Source: Candidatus Agathobaculum stercoravium
GTDB taxonomy: Bacteria; Bacillota; Clostridia; Oscillospirales; Butyricicoccaceae
Reading direction: 5' to 3'
Assembly (NCBI GenBank): GCA_019113065.1
Contig: DXIC01000032.1
Location: 1-37,999 of the forward strand
DNA: 37,999 nt
How positions within the stretch are numbered: the first letter of the stretch is position 1; each line of letters begins with the position of its first letter. The notes under the pieces are model-generated. The model was not told the origin of the DNA, made no database searches, and saw only the letters and a program-made list of their open reading frames with translations. A program made the position numbers and the translations under genes. Positions 4,418 through 25,641 of the stretch are shown piece after piece.

Positions 4418-4471
4418 GGTGCGGATGGGGGGACTTGAACCCCCACGTCCTTGCGAACACTAGCACCTGAA
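4417..4471 (-). other. attL: 3' half of tRNA-Leu(CAG), prophage insertion point
   Basis: Read on the minus strand this is the end of a leucine tRNA: anticodon loop TTCAGGT (anticodon CAG), stem GCTAG, long variable arm, T-arm GGGGG-TTCAAGT-CCCCC, acceptor CATCCGC, discriminator A and CCA. The 5' half (acceptor GCGGATG, D arm, stem CTAGC) is absent to the right, where the sequence turns AT-rich. So integration split the gene here and the rebuilt full tRNA should be at the far right end of the prophage, outside the window. The integrase gene is adjacent. Confidence 0.85.
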
Positions 4472-4664: not shown

Positions 4665-5774
4665 TTATTCTGCGCTCTCCTGCGCGGCTTCCGGGGCGTA
4701 CACCGGGCGCAGCGCACTGCGCAGTTGGTCGATTTCATTATGCACATATACTTCGGTGGTGATCTGAATATCCTTGTGCCCGAGCAGTTTCTGGATGGTG
4801 TAGATGTCCACACCATGCCGCCGGAGATAGGTGCCATAAGTGTGGCGCAGTTCATGTGCGGTGAGCGTCGGAACCTCTGGATGAGCGGCGTGCAGATCGC
4901 GCATAAAGCGTCCGAGCTTCTGCGACCAAGAGTAGGGGCTGTGCGGCCGGCCATGTTCGTTCGGGAAAATGTACAGGCTGTCATGCGGCTGTGCGCGGAC
5001 CACCTGTAAGGCTTCATCGCTCAAAGGCAGCGTGCGGAAGCTGTTCCACTTGGGAGGGTTGGCGACAACGCGCTTGTTCTTCAGCGCCATTGATCTCTGT
5101 ACACGGATTGTTCCGGACTGCTCGTCTAGGTCGCTCCACATCAGCCCCAGCAGCTCACCGCGGCGCAGACCAGTCTCCAGCAGCACGATCACTTCGGGCA
5201 TGCGGCCGCGGGCGAAGTCTTTGGTGATCTGGATCTGCTCGTCGCTCAGCACCTGTTTTTCGTGCTTGGTTGCCGTGCTGCGGAATGTGCTATGCTTGGC
5301 CGGGTTTTTATAGCACAGGTCGTTTTCAATCGCAGCCTCAAATAGCGCGTTAAGGATGGAGTTCATCTTTTTCAGGCGGGATTCCGAACACTGCGTCTTG
5401 GTTGCAAAGAAGTTCTGAATATCGACTGGACGAATATCGGTCAAACGTGCCTGTCCAAAGTAGGGGATCAGGTGGCCATTAACTAAACTTTCATAAGTGA
5501 GCGCATAGGTGTTGGCATCGACAAACGGTTTTTTGTAGGTTGTGAGCCACTTTTTCGCCCATGATGTAAAATCATACTGCGAAGGAATGAACGCTTCACC
5601 AGTGCGGGCTGATACCTCAGCGGAGATCTTGTATTCCTCGGCTTTTGCCTTGGCATCAGCAAGACTGACCGTGCTGTAAAACGATTTGCGAATCAGCTTG
5701 CCGCGAAAGTCCCGGCCGAGCGTGGCCTTGTACTCATAGCGGTTGTCTGAGCGGTTCGGTTTCTTTTTCGGCAT
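4665..5774 (-). CDS. int: Phage tyrosine recombinase/integrase
   Basis: This enzyme inserts and excises the prophage by site-specific recombination at the tRNA-Leu site. The 369 residues show an N-terminal arm-binding domain, a SAM-like core-binding domain (about 68-155) and a C-terminal catalytic domain. The catalytic set is complete: R204 in TGLRRGE, K242 in PPKWNSFRTL, H307 and R310 in HELRHTYG, H333 in LLGHKDI and the nucleophile Y343 in EVYVH. The ATG at 5774 follows AAGGGGAT at a good distance. Position next to the attachment site and orientation toward it are typical. It is the last gene of the minus-strand lysogeny block. Confidence 0.95.
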   Translation of the reverse strand: MPKKKPNRSDNRYEYKATLGRDFRGKLIRKSFYSTVSLADAKAKAEEYKISAEVSARTGEAFIPSQYDFTSWAKKWLTTYKKPFVDANTYALTYESLVNGHLIPYFGQARLTDIRPVDIQNFFATKTQCSESRLKKMNSILNALFEAAIENDLCYKNPAKHSTFRSTATKHEKQVLSDEQIQITKDFARGRMPEVIVLLETGLRRGELLGLMWSDLDEQSGTIRVQRSMALKNKRVVANPPKWNSFRTLPLSDEALQVVRAQPHDSLYIFPNEHGRPHSPYSWSQKLGRFMRDLHAAHPEVPTLTAHELRHTYGTYLRRHGVDIYTIQKLLGHKDIQITTEVYVHNEIDQLRSALRPVYAPEAAQESAE

Positions 5775-5896: not shown

Positions 5897-6571
5897 TTAT
5901 TCTTTTCGCATTTTTGCAAACGCCACATACGAAAGAGCTGTTTGCGCTGCTACGAATGCAATCATAAGCGGGAACGCAGCAATCGATACAGAATACAATA
6001 TAGCTCCCGTTAGCGCCAGTTTATGATTATTGGAATACCATGCAGCAATATTAAATGCAAGTCCCAATATTTCAAACGCAGCATGTGGAAGCATCGCAAT
6101 GACCATCATATTGAGCGCGAAGTCCCAAATGGATGCAACTTGGGGAGTGATACCCGTTGCAAGTGCATATACTAACCAGATAGCGTATATTCCGCCAATA
6201 GCCCATGATACGAGCAAAAGGTTCGAGCGTTCAGAACCATAATGGGTCGGCGTTGTATAAAAAGATTCTATACCCTTTGATTTATCAAGCTCGATGATTG
6301 GCTGCTCTATCTGCTTGCGCATCCTGCGGGCATCGCGATCGCTGTATTGCACCGGTGTAACATTCCGCTCAATATAGTTTATGGCTTCGTTGATTTCCTG
6401 CAGAGAATAATTCGTACACAGCCTGAAAAAGTCTGTCATATCAAACCGATTTTTATATACTCCGCGCACCACCGCAAGGTCGATCAAGTCCCCTTCCTTG
6501 TCGAAGTATTCGTGAAGCCGCTCTGTCGTCGCTTCTGTTTCTGCAGGCGTACCGCAATTAGAGTCGCACAT
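5897..6571 (-). CDS. Prophage multi-pass membrane protein in the lysogeny block
   Basis: I do not recognise the family. The 224-residue protein has a soluble charged N-terminal half (about 1-120) and a C-terminal half with roughly four transmembrane segments (SNLLLVSWAIGGIYAIWLVY, then two long hydrophobic stretches, then a final helix ending KMRKE). The start is at ATG 6571 because AGGAGGG lies five bases upstream; the track's earlier start at 6604 has no such site. It lies between int and the immA-like gene in the same direction, so it is probably expressed in the lysogen. A role in superinfection exclusion or host change is possible but unproven. It is AT-rich compared with the rest of the phage. 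Confidence 0.75.
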   Translation of the reverse strand: MCDSNCGTPAETEATTERLHEYFDKEGDLIDLAVVRGVYKNRFDMTDFFRLCTNYSLQEINEAINYIERNVTPVQYSDRDARRMRKQIEQPIIELDKSKGIESFYTTPTHYGSERSNLLLVSWAIGGIYAIWLVYALATGITPQVASIWDFALNMMVIAMLPHAAFEILGLAFNIAAWYSNNHKLALTGAILYSVSIAAFPLMIAFVAAQTALSYVAFAKMRKE

Positions 6572-6587
6572 TTTTACCCTCCTATAA

Positions 6588-6615
6588 TTGACAAATAGTG
6601 CCAATTCTGTATAAT
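6588..6615 (+). promoter_or_regulatory. Promoter of candidate small RNA
   Basis: TTGACA, 16 bp, TATAAT on the plus strand, both boxes perfect. It points away from the membrane gene and into a region where only minus-strand genes lie, so its product must be antisense or non-coding. Confidence 0.6.
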
Positions 6616-6621
6616 ATATTT

Positions 6622-6691
6622 GGAGAGTGTGCGTGTCATATCGTACTTTCCGTAAGACCGTCGAGGGGTAGGAGCCTTGACGGTCTTTTTT
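6622..6691 (+). ncRNA. Candidate prophage small RNA, antisense to the 3' end of the immA-like gene
   Basis: A transcript from the 6588-6615 promoter would run about 70 nt to a strong intrinsic terminator: AAGACCGTC / GACGGTCTT (6654-6687) followed by a T run. The hairpin loop contains GAGGGGTAGGAG, which is purine-rich and similar to a ribosome binding site. The minus strand of the same hairpin has no T run, so it is not an end signal for the immA-like gene. No ORF fits inside. The RNA is predicted only from promoter plus terminator. Confidence 0.5.
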
Positions 6692-6914
6692 CTATCTGAT
6701 CGGCCAGCTGCTCAAGCTGCGCGAGAGGAATAACTTCATTTGTAAAATGATCCTCATAGATATGCCGAAGTTCGTGCATCAGTGCCTTTCTCCGGCTTTC
6801 CTCGCATAAATACTCGCTCACGAAAATCGTGAACTCCATATAGTCGTCTGTTACAACGACGGCCTTAACCTTTGCAGGCAGCGGAGCCAGCCGAGCAAAG
6901 ATTTCAGGGGTCAT
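6636..6914 (-). CDS. ImmA/IrrE-like short metallopeptidase
   Basis: The 92-residue protein carries HELRHIYEDHF (H47, E48, H51), the zinc-binding HExxH motif of ImmA-type proteases, which cleave phage repressors to trigger induction. It is shorter than many ImmA proteins, so it may be a minimal form. It starts four bases after the repressor stop, and its AAAGGAC site lies inside the end of the repressor gene, so the two are likely translated together. This order (cI-like then immA-like) matches the ICEBs1/phage switch in Firmicutes. The 3' end is overlapped by the candidate small RNA on the other strand. Confidence 0.8.
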   Translation of the reverse strand: MTPEIFARLAPLPAKVKAVVVTDDYMEFTIFVSEYLCEESRRKALMHELRHIYEDHFTNEVIPLAQLEQLADQIEKRPSRLLPLDGLTESTI

Positions 6915-6918
6915 CCGA

Positions 6919-7287
6919 TCAGTCCTTTCCCAACATTGCCTCGATCACCTTTACTGCTTTTTCGACATCTTCTTTGGTTGCGTCCTTTGTGAGCTGGAAC
7001 ATCATCTTTAGTTCCGGACGTGTGCGCAGCTGCTCCAAATATTCGGTAAGCTCTTCGTCATCGTTGACGAGGGGCTTTTCTTTTGGCTCTTTTCCTAAAA
7101 GATAATCCACAGAGACCCCAAAATATTCAGAAATCTTTGTAAGATTCTCTGTTTTGAGTGTCTTTATACGTTCCATTTTTAGTTCGGTTAAATTTCCTCT
7201 GCTGATTGAAAGGTCTTTGCACATTTTACCAATGCTAATACCTTTACCTTGGCATAATTCATAGATGCGATTATACAAATCAGACAT
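6919..7287 (-). CDS. cI-like phage repressor, XRE family
   Basis: The 122-residue protein has an N-terminal XRE helix-turn-helix (about 17-36, ISIGKMCKDLSISRGNLTEL), then the typical YFGVSVDYLLGKE linker and a helical C-terminus. It most likely binds the GTAC-containing operators upstream and keeps the lytic promoter off in the lysogen. The ATG at 7287 is chosen because GGGGGCG lies five bases upstream; the earlier start at 7311 has no site. Its promoter is the leftward one at 7422-7450. The downstream ImmA-like protein is its probable inactivator. Confidence 0.88.
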   Translation of the reverse strand: MSDLYNRIYELCQGKGISIGKMCKDLSISRGNLTELKMERIKTLKTENLTKISEYFGVSVDYLLGKEPKEKPLVNDDEELTEYLEQLRTRPELKMMFQLTKDATKEDVEKAVKVIEAMLGKD

Positions 7288-7327
7288 TTTTTCGCCCCCG
7301 TTTTTGTGCACAATAGAAAAGCTCTAA

Positions 7328-7450
7328 TTTTTGTACAAACGAGGTTGACTTGTACTAAACTTTGTACTATAATCAATTCAGACAGGTACAAAAAGTAGTG
7401 CTTATATTTGGTGGTACTTATATAATAGTACAACTTTTAGTACCTGTCAA
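7328..7450. promoter_or_regulatory. Lysis-lysogeny switch: two converging promoters with operators
   Basis: Rightward promoter: TTGACT (7345-7350), 17 bp, TATAAT (7368-7373). Leftward promoter: TTGACA (7445-7450), 17 bp, TATTAT (7422-7427). They face each other with start points about 35 bp apart. The two spacers are nearly the same sequence, TGTACTAAACTTTGTAC and GGTACTAAAAGTTGTAC, and a third copy, GGTACAAAAAGTAGTGC, lies between them (7385-7401). A further TTTGTACAAA half-palindrome lies at 7330-7339. These are the expected repressor/Cro operators. Confidence 0.8.
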
Positions 7451-7478
7451 TGAATTTTACATGGAAGGAGGATTTTTG

Positions 7479-7709
7479 TTGGGAAACACCAAATTTTCCC
7501 CGTTCGGTTTGTGCGTGAAGAAAAGGCTTCTTGACCTCGGTATGACGCAGAAAGAGCTTGAGGAAGAGGTCAATAAGCGCACAGGGCTTTTTGTTGATGC
7601 TGGGTACATGTACAAAATACTGACCGGCCAGCGTGAAGCCCCGAAGATTGCTCAGGCTGTGCGTGAAATTCTTGACTTACCTGAGCAAGAACAGCATAGC
7701 ACATCGTAA
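7479..7709 (+). CDS. Cro-like XRE regulator, first early gene
   Basis: The protein is about 76 residues long and carries a helix-turn-helix region around GMTQKELEEEVNKRTG...YMYKILTGQR, like small phage Cro/antirepressor proteins. The start is TTG 7479, seven bases after AAGGAGG; the track's ATG at 7362 lies inside the promoter and cannot be used by the rightward transcript. It is the first gene after the rightward promoter, with about a 100-nt leader. By position it should compete with the repressor for the GTAC operators. A perfect small hairpin (TAAGTCCG/CGGACTTA) overlaps its stop. Confidence 0.75.
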   Translation: MGNTKFSPFGLCVKKRLLDLGMTQKELEEEVNKRTGLFVDAGYMYKILTGQREAPKIAQAVREILDLPEQEQHSTS

Positions 7710-7748
7710 GTCCGATAAAGCGGACTTAAAAGAAAGGAGCGTGATCCC

Positions 7749-8015
7749 ATGATAACCCCAAAACCAGTGATGGACAAGCTCGCGGAACTGAACCAGCTTT
7801 GCGAAAAGTTTCCGCTCAAGATCCCACTGATCGACTGTGCGGCCTTCCTCGGCATGGAAGCTGAGAGCCTTCGGGCATGCCTCGAGCGGGGCAGCTGTCC
7901 GTTCGGGCTGGGCTGGATCAAGAAGAACGCGCATAACCGCGCATTTTACATCCCGACGCCTACGTTTTATCTCTGGTATACGCAGTGCGCCGGTTTCAGG
8001 GAGGGAACAGCATGA
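7749..8015 (+). CDS. Small phage protein, possible DNA-binding (excisionase-like)
   Basis: An 88-residue protein with an AAAGGAG site nine bases before ATG 7749. The middle (IDCAAFLGMEAESLRACLERGSCPFG) reads like a helix-turn-helix in which a helix-specifying region is followed by a basic wing, and the end (AFYIPTPTFYLWYT) is aromatic. I have the impression this type occurs early in clostridial phages near the Cro gene, where excisionase or recombination directionality factors can lie. No catalytic motif is visible. The function is uncertain. Confidence 0.6.
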   Translation: MITPKPVMDKLAELNQLCEKFPLKIPLIDCAAFLGMEAESLRACLERGSCPFGLGWIKKNAHNRAFYIPTPTFYLWYTQCAGFREGTA

Positions 8016-22807: not shown

Positions 22808-24184
22808 ATGTTTCAGCAGTTGATCCAGTGGATCAGGACGCTTTTCGGAAAAATTGTTGGGCAGCGAACCCAGCGGGAGATGATGGAAAGCGACAAATAC
22901 AAACGGCAGTATGAGGACACGCGGAGTATCAACTTCGATGCTATCTTTGCTGGTTCTCTCGCCAACAAGTCGGTGAACGACTGCAATATGACGGTCACGG
23001 ACGCAAACGACGGGGAGAGCCGGCGCAGCGCCCTGATTTCCGACGTGCTGACGCCGGTATGGGACAACATCAAGCAGACGCTGACACAGGCGCTGGGCAA
23101 GGGCGGGAAGTTCCTTGTGCCCTATGTGATCGGCGACCGCATCTATGTTGCCGCTCTCGACCAGACCCGATGCGTGGTGAATGAAACCAACGGGGCGGGC
23201 GAGATCGTTTCGCTATCGGTTGTTGCGGAAATCAAGCAGGTCAATAACAACTACTATCAGCGCATCATCGACTATACGCTGGACGGCGGCACGCTTTCGA
23301 TCAAAACCCGCATCATCAATACATCAGGCGGCCCGGTGTCGTTCGACATCACGCCGGAGTGGGCCAGCATCACGCCGGAGATCACGATCGGGAATGTCGA
23401 CCGCGTGCCGGTGGGATTTCTGAAATGCCCCAAGGACAGCCGTCGTGAGGACGACTTCTATGGCGTTCCCATTACATACGGATCCGGGGATACCATCCGG
23501 CAGCTGCATGAATGTATGGCGCAGATCGAGAGCGAATACAAGCTCAAGCGCGCTTTTGTGGGTGCGGACGAACTGCTGTTCGGGAAAGACGGGAAACTGC
23601 CAGACAGCGGGCTGTTCAAGAAGTTCCACACCGGCGGCGCGCTGAATGAAGGCAAGAGCTTTTGGGAGATATTTGACCCGACGATCCGGGACAGCTCCTA
23701 TTATGCCCGATACAATGCCCTGTGCGCTCAGCTGGAAAAAGAGGTTGGCACGTCCAAGGGCGTCCTGACCGAACCGGCGAGCTTCGGCGCCACGGCAACC
23801 GAGATCAAGAGCGCAAACCACGACACCTTCTGTCTGGTGTCCGACATCCGCAAGAACATCCAGTCCTGCTTTGAGGATCTGGCCTATTCCATCGACATGT
23901 ACGCGGAGTTCTTCGGGCTGACCCCGGCGGGAGCGTCAGGGGACTATAAAGTCACGTTTGACTGGGATATGTCCCTTGTGGAGAGCAGCAGCGAGACCTT
24001 TGACCAGCTTTCTGAGCTGGAAAGCCGCGGCCTGATTTCCGGCGCCCGCCTCAACAGCTGGGTTACCGGGCAGAGCATGGAGGATGCACAGGCGGAGATC
24101 GACGCGGTGCAGGCGCAGAAAGCAAAAACGGCGGCAGCCCTGTTGCAGCCGGAGGACTTAGAGCCGGAAGGAGGCAATTTATGA
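22808..24184 (+). CDS. Portal protein, SPP1/A118-like
   Basis: The 458-residue protein follows the terminase at the expected place and shows portal features: N-terminal amphipathic segment, DNDGESRRSALISDVLTPVWDNI-like central stem and wing regions, and a long acidic/alanine-rich C-terminal tail (VQAQKAKTAAALLQPEDLEPEGG). Portals form the dodecameric ring at one capsid vertex through which DNA enters. The phage-type assignment (A118/SPP1 group) follows from its position before a Phage_min_cap2-like minor capsid gene. A good GGCGGTGA site precedes ATG 22808. Confidence 0.85.
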   Translation: MFQQLIQWIRTLFGKIVGQRTQREMMESDKYKRQYEDTRSINFDAIFAGSLANKSVNDCNMTVTDANDGESRRSALISDVLTPVWDNIKQTLTQALGKGGKFLVPYVIGDRIYVAALDQTRCVVNETNGAGEIVSLSVVAEIKQVNNNYYQRIIDYTLDGGTLSIKTRIINTSGGPVSFDITPEWASITPEITIGNVDRVPVGFLKCPKDSRREDDFYGVPITYGSGDTIRQLHECMAQIESEYKLKRAFVGADELLFGKDGKLPDSGLFKKFHTGGALNEGKSFWEIFDPTIRDSSYYARYNALCAQLEKEVGTSKGVLTEPASFGATATEIKSANHDTFCLVSDIRKNIQSCFEDLAYSIDMYAEFFGLTPAGASGDYKVTFDWDMSLVESSSETFDQLSELESRGLISGARLNSWVTGQSMEDAQAEIDAVQAQKAKTAAALLQPEDLEPEGGNL

Positions 24185-24492
24185 AAATCCCTGATTCCGT
24201 CCGCATTGGCGGCGTAGAGTATGAGGTGTTCGACAACCAGCCGTCCCTGAATGACGGCGAAAACCTGCTGTATGGTCAGATCGACTACCGCGAAAGCACG
24301 ATCCGGCTTTCCGATCTGTGCGAAGGGCACCAGATGAAGTGTATCACGCTGCTGCACGAAATCCTTCATGGCATCCGGAACCATGCAGGCCTTGAAGTAG
24401 AAAACGAGGAAGAGGTCGTTGATATGTTCGCTCGCGGCCTGTACCAGGTGTTGCAGGACAACGGCAGGCGGCTGTTTGACCTGGAGGAGTAA
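24181..24492 (+). CDS. HExxH metallopeptidase-like small protein in the head module
   Basis: The 103-residue product contains TLLHEILHGIRNHA, an HExxH zinc motif with a following His, and an acidic stretch EVENEEEVVDMFARGL. Small proteins of this kind lie between portal and minor capsid genes in some clostridial phages. The active-site motif suggests a protease or a former one. ATG 24181 overlaps the portal stop in ATGA, with GAAGGAGG upstream. Substrate unknown. Confidence 0.65.
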   Translation: MKIPDSVRIGGVEYEVFDNQPSLNDGENLLYGQIDYRESTIRLSDLCEGHQMKCITLLHEILHGIRNHAGLEVENEEEVVDMFARGLYQVLQDNGRRLFDLEE

Positions 24493-24495
24493 CCC

Positions 24496-25641
24496 ATGCT
24501 GACCGACAAGCAGATAGAGGATGCTTACGAAATCATCCGCGGGCGCATCGACCAGGTGAACACGGACTATCTGCAAAAGGTCGGGGCGCAGATCAAGGCC
24601 ATTGGGAAGCTGAACCCCTCCAGCATCAACCGGCTGACGCAGATGCGTGTGTACGGCGCGAATGTCCGCAAGATCAAGGAGGAACTTGCAAAGGCGCTCG
24701 ATATGAGCGTGCAGGACGTGCAGCAGCTGTTGGAGCAGGCAGCCAAAGAGGAATATTCCAGTGCGGATTTTCTGGCGGTGGAGCGCGGAAGGCGTATTGT
24801 GCCGCTGGAATATAACTACGCCCTCCAGCAGTACATACAATCCCTTGCAGCGCAGACAGCGAGCAGTTTTTTGAACTACTCCAACACGACGAACATTGAT
24901 GCAGTCTATCAGGAAGTCGTGTCCGAGGCGATCGACGCCGTTTCCCGCGGCGTGACGGATTACAACTCGGCCATCCGCTCAAGTATGCGGAAGATGGGCG
25001 GGGACGGCCTGCGGGTGACCTATGAGAGCGGCGTGACCCGGCGGCTTGATACCGCGATCCGCATGAACATTCTGGACGGCACAAAGCAGATCGCCCAGGA
25101 GGCGCAGCGGCAGATCGGGGAGCAGATCGGCGCTGACGGTGTGGAGCTGTCCGCGCACCCGTATTCCGCGCTTGACCATGAACCGGCACAGGGACGGCAG
25201 TACAGCCTTGCAGAGTATCAGAAGATGCAGAGCGGGCAGGGCTTCCAGGACGTAGACGGCAACCAGTTCGCGCCCTTCCAGCGGCCGATCGGGCAGTGGA
25301 ACTGCCACCACTTCCCAAGCTATATCATTCTGGGCGTATCGCCCCGGCGGTACACAAATGCACAGCTGCGGCAGTGGCGGAAAGCTAATCACGAGGGCTG
25401 CGAGATCGACGGCAAGCACTACACCACCTATCAGGCCAGCCAGCTCATGCGGACACTGGAAACCAAGGTGCGGCAGCAAAAGGATATTGCGAACCTTGCA
25501 AAAGCGTCCGGGGATGATGTGCTCCGCCGGGAAGCGCAGGCCAATATTCGGGACCTGCGCGCCAAGTATGCAGAGGTAGCTCGCAAGGCCGGGCTGCGAC
25601 AGCGGACAGACAAGATGATCATAGAGAGCTATACAAAGTAA
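24496..25641 (+). CDS. Phage minor capsid protein 2 (MuF-like)
   Basis: The 381-residue protein is helical at the N-terminus (IIRGRIDQVNTDYLQKV), carries a central region with SAHPYSALDHEPAQGRQYSLAEY and NCHHFPSYIILGVSPRRY, and ends in coiled basic helices. This is the pattern of the Phage_min_cap2 family, a portal-associated protein related to MuF/SPP1 gp7 that enters the head. GGAGGAG precedes ATG 24496. The structured intergenic region follows. Confidence 0.85.
   Translation: MLTDKQIEDAYEIIRGRIDQVNTDYLQKVGAQIKAIGKLNPSSINRLTQMRVYGANVRKIKEELAKALDMSVQDVQQLLEQAAKEEYSSADFLAVERGRRIVPLEYNYALQQYIQSLAAQTASSFLNYSNTTNIDAVYQEVVSEAIDAVSRGVTDYNSAIRSSMRKMGGDGLRVTYESGVTRRLDTAIRMNILDGTKQIAQEAQRQIGEQIGADGVELSAHPYSALDHEPAQGRQYSLAEYQKMQSGQGFQDVDGNQFAPFQRPIGQWNCHHFPSYIILGVSPRRYTNAQLRQWRKANHEGCEIDGKHYTTYQASQLMRTLETKVRQQKDIANLAKASGDDVLRREAQANIRDLRAKYAEVARKAGLRQRTDKMIIESYTK

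Follow-up and report, generated by a model that had tools for sequence, protein, structure and literature searches.

In the window (the whole 37,999-nucleotide stretch analysed here), a tyrosine-integrase prophage carries a lysis-lysogeny switch that is probably a mutual-exclusion toggle, in which two promoters facing each other are governed by shared operators. The predicted lytic promoter pR (7345–7373, + strand; TTGACT-TGTACTAAACTTTGTAC-TATAAT) and the predicted lysogenic (cI) promoter pL (7422–7450, − strand; TTGACA-GGTACTAAAAGTTGTAC-TATTAT) each match the sigma-A consensus at 11/12 positions with a 17-bp spacer, and they point at each other as the original prediction had proposed. With starts estimated as ~7 nt past the −10 hexamer, transcription is predicted to begin near 7380 (+) and near 7415 (−), giving converging starts ~36 bp apart, in agreement with the ~35 bp first put forward. 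A promoter scan of 5 kb returned 14 promoter-like sites versus 4.2 in shuffled sequences, and pR and pL were among the best three. The spacers of pR and pL are identical at 14/17 positions (chance for one pair ~5 × 10−6), confirming that they are near copies, and the third 14/17 match noted between them is GGTACAAAAAGTAGTGC (7385–7401), compared with the pL spacer. Both promoters recur in homologous loci, pR at the same position; in Flavonifractor phage Castelnaud (ON453903) the pR hexamers are identical and only the spacer centre differs, while the counterpart of pL is TTGACA-17-TAATAT.

Predicted operators and neighbouring palindromes

Three predicted 16-bp operators occupy this region. O1 (GTACTAAACTTTGTAC; 7352–7367) lies inside the pR spacer and O2 (GTACAACTTTTAGTAC, read on the other strand as GTACTAAAAGTTGTAC; 7428–7443) inside the pL spacer, both being exact GTAC-N8-GTAC palindromes, and the weaker O3 (GTACAAAAAGTAGTGC; 7386–7401), which carries a single arm mismatch, lies between the two starts. 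These two exact palindromes are the only ones in the 38-kb window, where 0.10 would be expected from shuffles, and GTAC tetramers are concentrated around them (7 within 7333–7443 versus 118 across all 38 kb). In Castelnaud, O1 and O2 keep their arms while their centres change, as expected for palindromic repressor sites, and O3 is conserved too; third operator copies were also found in several related loci (L002, L005, L006, L107 and others). Together with the co-variation described below, this conservation supports the view that the GTAC palindromes behave as repressor operators. A half-site-like sequence upstream of pR (TTTGTACAAA; 7330–7339) is likewise invariant in Castelnaud. A fourth operator half at the GTAC of position 7414 was rejected, as this tetramer is absent from Castelnaud.

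Genes around the switch and proposed mechanism

The identification of the region as a lysis-lysogeny switch was borne out by its flanking genes, as a CI-like and a Cro-like gene diverge from the promoter region. The cI-like gene (6919–7287, −) encodes a 122-aa repressor composed of a helix-turn-helix (HTH) domain (helices 19–26 and 30–37) and a helical tail. Profile matches to HTH_19/HTH_26 were above the cut-off and phrog_8 was also matched, the only NCBIfam match being a sub-threshold one to RstR. The nearest solved sequences are Stl and ICEBs1 ImmR (the PDB gave three sequence matches, the ImmR DNA-binding domain among them at E=0.0044), and the nearest folds to the modelled CI are those of SinR, ImmR and DdrO. 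CI is an HTH repressor related to ImmR and lacking an S24/LexA-like peptidase domain. The lambda repressor undergoes RecA-stimulated self-cleavage; from the known biology of repressors without a peptidase domain, this route is unlikely for CI.

On the other side, the cro-like gene (7479–7709, +; 76 aa), with a TTG start after AGGAGG, matches the transcriptional repressor family phrog_1468 (E=4.6 × 10−11). Downstream of cI, a small gene (6636–6914, −) encodes a 92-aa HExxH protein, a candidate anti-repressor protease with HELRH and a downstream E-x-x-A, in which H47, E48, H51, E68 and A71 are invariant in 10 relatives. Its phage metallopeptidase matches are weak, as are its profile-search matches (MJ1213, E=0.033; IrrE, E=0.43–0.49); searches of Pfam (including Peptidase_M78) and NCBIfam gave no significant match, and a fold search with the modelled protein gave no meaningful one. 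A tyrosine integrase (4665–5774) and a large terminase (21362, among the rightward phage genes) mark the prophage. By eye, positions 4420–4470 beside the integrase resemble a leftward tRNA gene in its 3′ part and are a likely attachment site; ARAGORN reports no complete tRNA there.

The sequence itself shows the genes and sites, their geometry and conservation, the co-variation and the exchange of the cassette; promoter activity, protein–site assignments, interference and proteolysis are what we infer from these elements. Transcription from pR would run rightward into cro and the lytic genes, and transcription from pL would run leftward into cI, the small protease gene and further genes. Across the ~36-bp gap each polymerase would have to cross the other promoter, and simultaneous occupancy of both would hardly be possible, judging from known polymerase footprints and from phage 186, where pR inhibits pL; transcriptional interference of the 186 type between pR and pL is likely by this analogy. 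CI dimers would bind the 16-bp palindrome: at O1 they would block pR and thereby free pL from interference, whereas at O2, within pL, they would cap CI's own synthesis, and O3, which follows both starts closely, may contribute to co-operativity or serve as a roadblock. Cro would probably use the same sites with a preference for O2, shutting pL. At induction, the HExxH protein probably inactivates CI via its helical tail, much as ImmR is inactivated by ImmA.

A further set of signals lies at the end of the protease gene. Within 6588–6692 there is a perfect 12/12 promoter (TTGACA-16-TATAAT, +), with a strong hairpin and T run within ~70 nt of its predicted start; the predicted 71-nt RNA (fold −33.5 kcal/mol, z=−5.3), from a region conserved in a related locus (L003), is a possible small antisense RNA directed at the end of the protease gene. 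An Rfam scan of 6300–8000 returned nothing credible. A leftward ATGACA-17-TATTAT (6611–6639, −), upstream of a 235-aa gene (5897–6604), overlaps this perfect rightward promoter and forms a second opposed pair in the same prophage.

Promoter geometry among relatives of the repressor

CI homologues were gathered from related genomes, GTDB genomes and IMG/VR, and the 300 bp upstream of each was scored for the best opposing promoter pair in 150 dereplicated regions, with a summed pair score of at least 20 for counting, at least 22 for a stricter set, and dinucleotide shuffles as the control. In this survey, biased in that it samples homologues of one CI, the best pair at a score of at least 20 was face-to-face in 103/150 regions and back-to-back in 11/150 (shuffles, 2.05 and 1.6), and at a score of at least 22 in 63/150 and 1/150, respectively (shuffles, 0.05 and 0). 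Predicted face-to-face promoters are hence the rule among relatives of this CI. Clustering of the DNA-binding domain at 50% identity gave only 23 clusters (9 mainly face-to-face, 6 back-to-back, 7 undetermined and 1 tied), so that independent origins of the geometry are few. In one locus (L004; genome G046, contig 27), several CI-like HTH copies lie in tandem around 23816–25427.

The same scan was applied to named phages, with control geometries checked against the literature or record annotation (record annotation in the case of TP-J34). It returned back-to-back promoters for TP901-1, phi11, phi13, A118 and TP-J34, and face-to-face promoters for 186, Castelnaud, IPP44, MM1, SM1, B025, bIL310, 315.6, phiFL2B, phiARI0460-2 and phiRgPS_6; since both known geometries were recovered in the controls, the method does not simply favour one of them. 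The expectation that most Firmicute switches are divergent therefore holds for the five back-to-back phages but fails among the relatives of this CI, to which the known phages MM1, SM1, B025, bIL310, 315.6 and phiFL2B belong.

In the related prophages that were searched, the opposed layout is kept while the operator sequence drifts between relatives. Start-to-start gaps in related loci range from ~15 to 118 bp, with groups near 36, 41–48, 60–65 and 91–118 bp, the last including streptococcal, enterococcal and listerial loci and many near-duplicate promoters. Among loci with 17-bp spacers on both sides, 25/88 spacer pairs within a locus were alike at 11/17 or more positions, compared with 124/7656 cross-locus pairs. 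A downstream HExxH gene was present at 74/104 face-to-face loci versus 17/45 other loci; such a gene suggests an ImmA-like anti-repressor.

These data also bear on a simpler account, in which the convergence is real, operator occupancy alone sets the state and polymerase interference is negligible. Steric repression of both promoters would be satisfied by one operator in each, and the layout is kept across the full range of start gaps, over which the strength of interference should vary widely. Occupancy alone, however, gives converging promoters no gain, yet face-to-face pairs outnumber back-to-back ones by 103 to 11, and interference by pR on pL is documented in 186 (PMC7498355); we regard this account as unlikely, if still worth serious consideration, and retain the toggle with interference as the preferred reading.

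Co-variation of repressor and operator

The protein that reads the palindromes was approached through 25 MSxLY-type CI homologues whose operators have GTAC or TTAC arms. The CI column most informative on the outer operator base was residue 32 (z=6.6), followed by residue 3 (z=5.5) and then residues 28, 26 and 20; that residue 3, outside the HTH, scores too suggests that shared ancestry inflates the co-variation to some degree. In the modelled CI, residue 32 falls within helix 30–37, the second HTH (recognition) helix, and a serine at this position was found in 8/14 TTAC-type versus 0/11 GTAC-type homologues (Fisher P=0.003). The co-variation favours CI as the operator binder. Binding mainly by Cro or by a host regulator would accommodate the fact that cro lies in the same exchanged cassette as the operators (see below), since co-segregation then does not single out CI; but the best co-variation with the outer operator base resides in the CI recognition helix, and the 2.2-Mb host genome holds just 31 GTAC-N8-GTAC sites, O1 and O2 being two of them, which makes such an assignment improbable.

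Exchange of the immunity cassette

Comparison with the related locus L003 delimited an exchangeable immunity cassette (7085–7681) that comprises the DNA-binding half of cI, the promoters and operators, and most of cro. Identity to L003 is 96% at 6580–7084, at most 48% across 7085–7681 and 86% over the 64 bp at 7682–7745, placing the left junction in the CI linker and the right junction near the end of cro. The replacement cassette of L002/L003 has a different operator, and its promoters again converge. The CI head is 77% identical to that of Castelnaud and 30% to that of L002, whereas the corresponding values for the CI tail are 26% and 100%, and the HExxH protein is 95% identical to its L002 counterpart. 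In these comparisons the CI head moves as a unit with the operators and cro, and the CI tail with the protease; this is the expected pattern if operator recognition resides in the head and the protease acts on the tail. Castelnaud carries nearly the switch of the window, with the same promoters and three sites and a Cro that is 55% identical, but its protease has no detectable similarity to that of the window; a shared CI head and Cro beside an unrelated tail and protease indicate modular exchange. A palindrome in the cI leader (TTGTGCACAA; 7304–7313) is present in the window, Castelnaud, L002/L003, L028, L037 and L157, and persists in relatives whose surrounding cassette has been replaced.

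The idea that only one strong promoter (for example pR) is active in vivo, the other arising incidentally from AT-rich operator palindromes beside TATAAT-like sequence, draws on the facts that consensus matches by themselves are no proof of activity and that the predicted operators abut the −10 hexamers, but Castelnaud has both promoters and both reach at least 10/12 in many non-homologous cassettes with unrelated operators, which leaves it very improbable.

Comparison with known switches

A convergent switch is already known in P2-like coliphages and has been predicted for two prophages of Clostridium clostridioforme (PMC11318856); besides the latter report, we found no other on a Firmicute convergent switch in the open-access literature that was searched. 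New here are the layout with an operator in both promoters, its spread, its co-variation with CI and the boundaries of the cassette. We tentatively suggest, as a possibility that we hold at rather less than even confidence, that the window belongs to a large, mostly unrecognised class of Firmicute switches combining 186-like converging promoters with lambda-like shared operators. Within it, the window would represent a subclass with gaps of 33–38 bp, where joint initiation would be precluded and the DNA itself would be the toggle, and the cI head, operators and cro would be swapped together while the cI tail and protease stay constant. The well-studied Gram-positive switches that we scanned have back-to-back promoters; should facing promoters prevail in this CI family, a decision mechanism studied mainly in P2-like coliphages would operate in many gut, streptococcal, enterococcal and listerial prophages. 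Furthermore, operators that vary within a constant layout provide ready material for deciphering CI specificity, and through an exchanged cassette superinfection immunity could change in one recombination step. The switch of the window becomes testable through Castelnaud, which has an almost identical switch and was induced from F. plautii YL31; PMC10197239 lists it with the other induced prophages of the OMM12 mouse consortium.

As in the window, cI and cro/mor diverge in TP901-1, phi13, phi11, A118 and TP-J34, with palindromic operators between them where studied. All five have back-to-back promoters, the arrangement that defines a lambda/TP901-1-type switch and that the window lacks. TP-J34 has a repressor and metalloprotease module and is nonetheless back-to-back, so the link between geometry and protease is not a strict one.

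ImmR/ImmA modules resemble the window in pairing a short HTH repressor that lacks a peptidase domain with a downstream, co-directional HExxH gene, and differ in that the HExxH protein of the window is a 92-aa form without a Pfam Peptidase_M78 match. ICEBs1 differs further by its divergent promoters, as reported for it and for LM41 phi2; for LM41 phi5 and phi12 of C. clostridioforme, which have ImmR/ImmA-like modules, convergent promoters were predicted and 186-like interference was suggested (PMC11318856). The phage phiARI0460-2, from pneumococcal strain 08B02743, is of the ImmAR type (PMC12637031).

In P2-like phages, the lytic and lysogenic promoters face each other at 40–60 bp, with pR inhibiting pL in 186; repressor sites cover the lytic promoter, and the Apl/Cox direct repeats lie between the promoters or over the lysogenic one (PMC7498355). 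The window shares with them the facing promoters (~36 bp), the divergence of cI and the first lytic gene, and a lytic promoter that the repressor could occupy. It departs from them in having one palindrome type in both promoters and in the middle; no separate direct-repeat operators of the Apl/Cox kind were found between its promoters, the sites being copies of one GTAC palindrome, and its first lytic protein is Cro-like (phrog_1468 repressor) rather than Apl/Cox-like. The parallel with 186 drawn in the original prediction thus extends to the converging promoters, whereas the operator layout is distinct from that of 186 and the P2-like phages.
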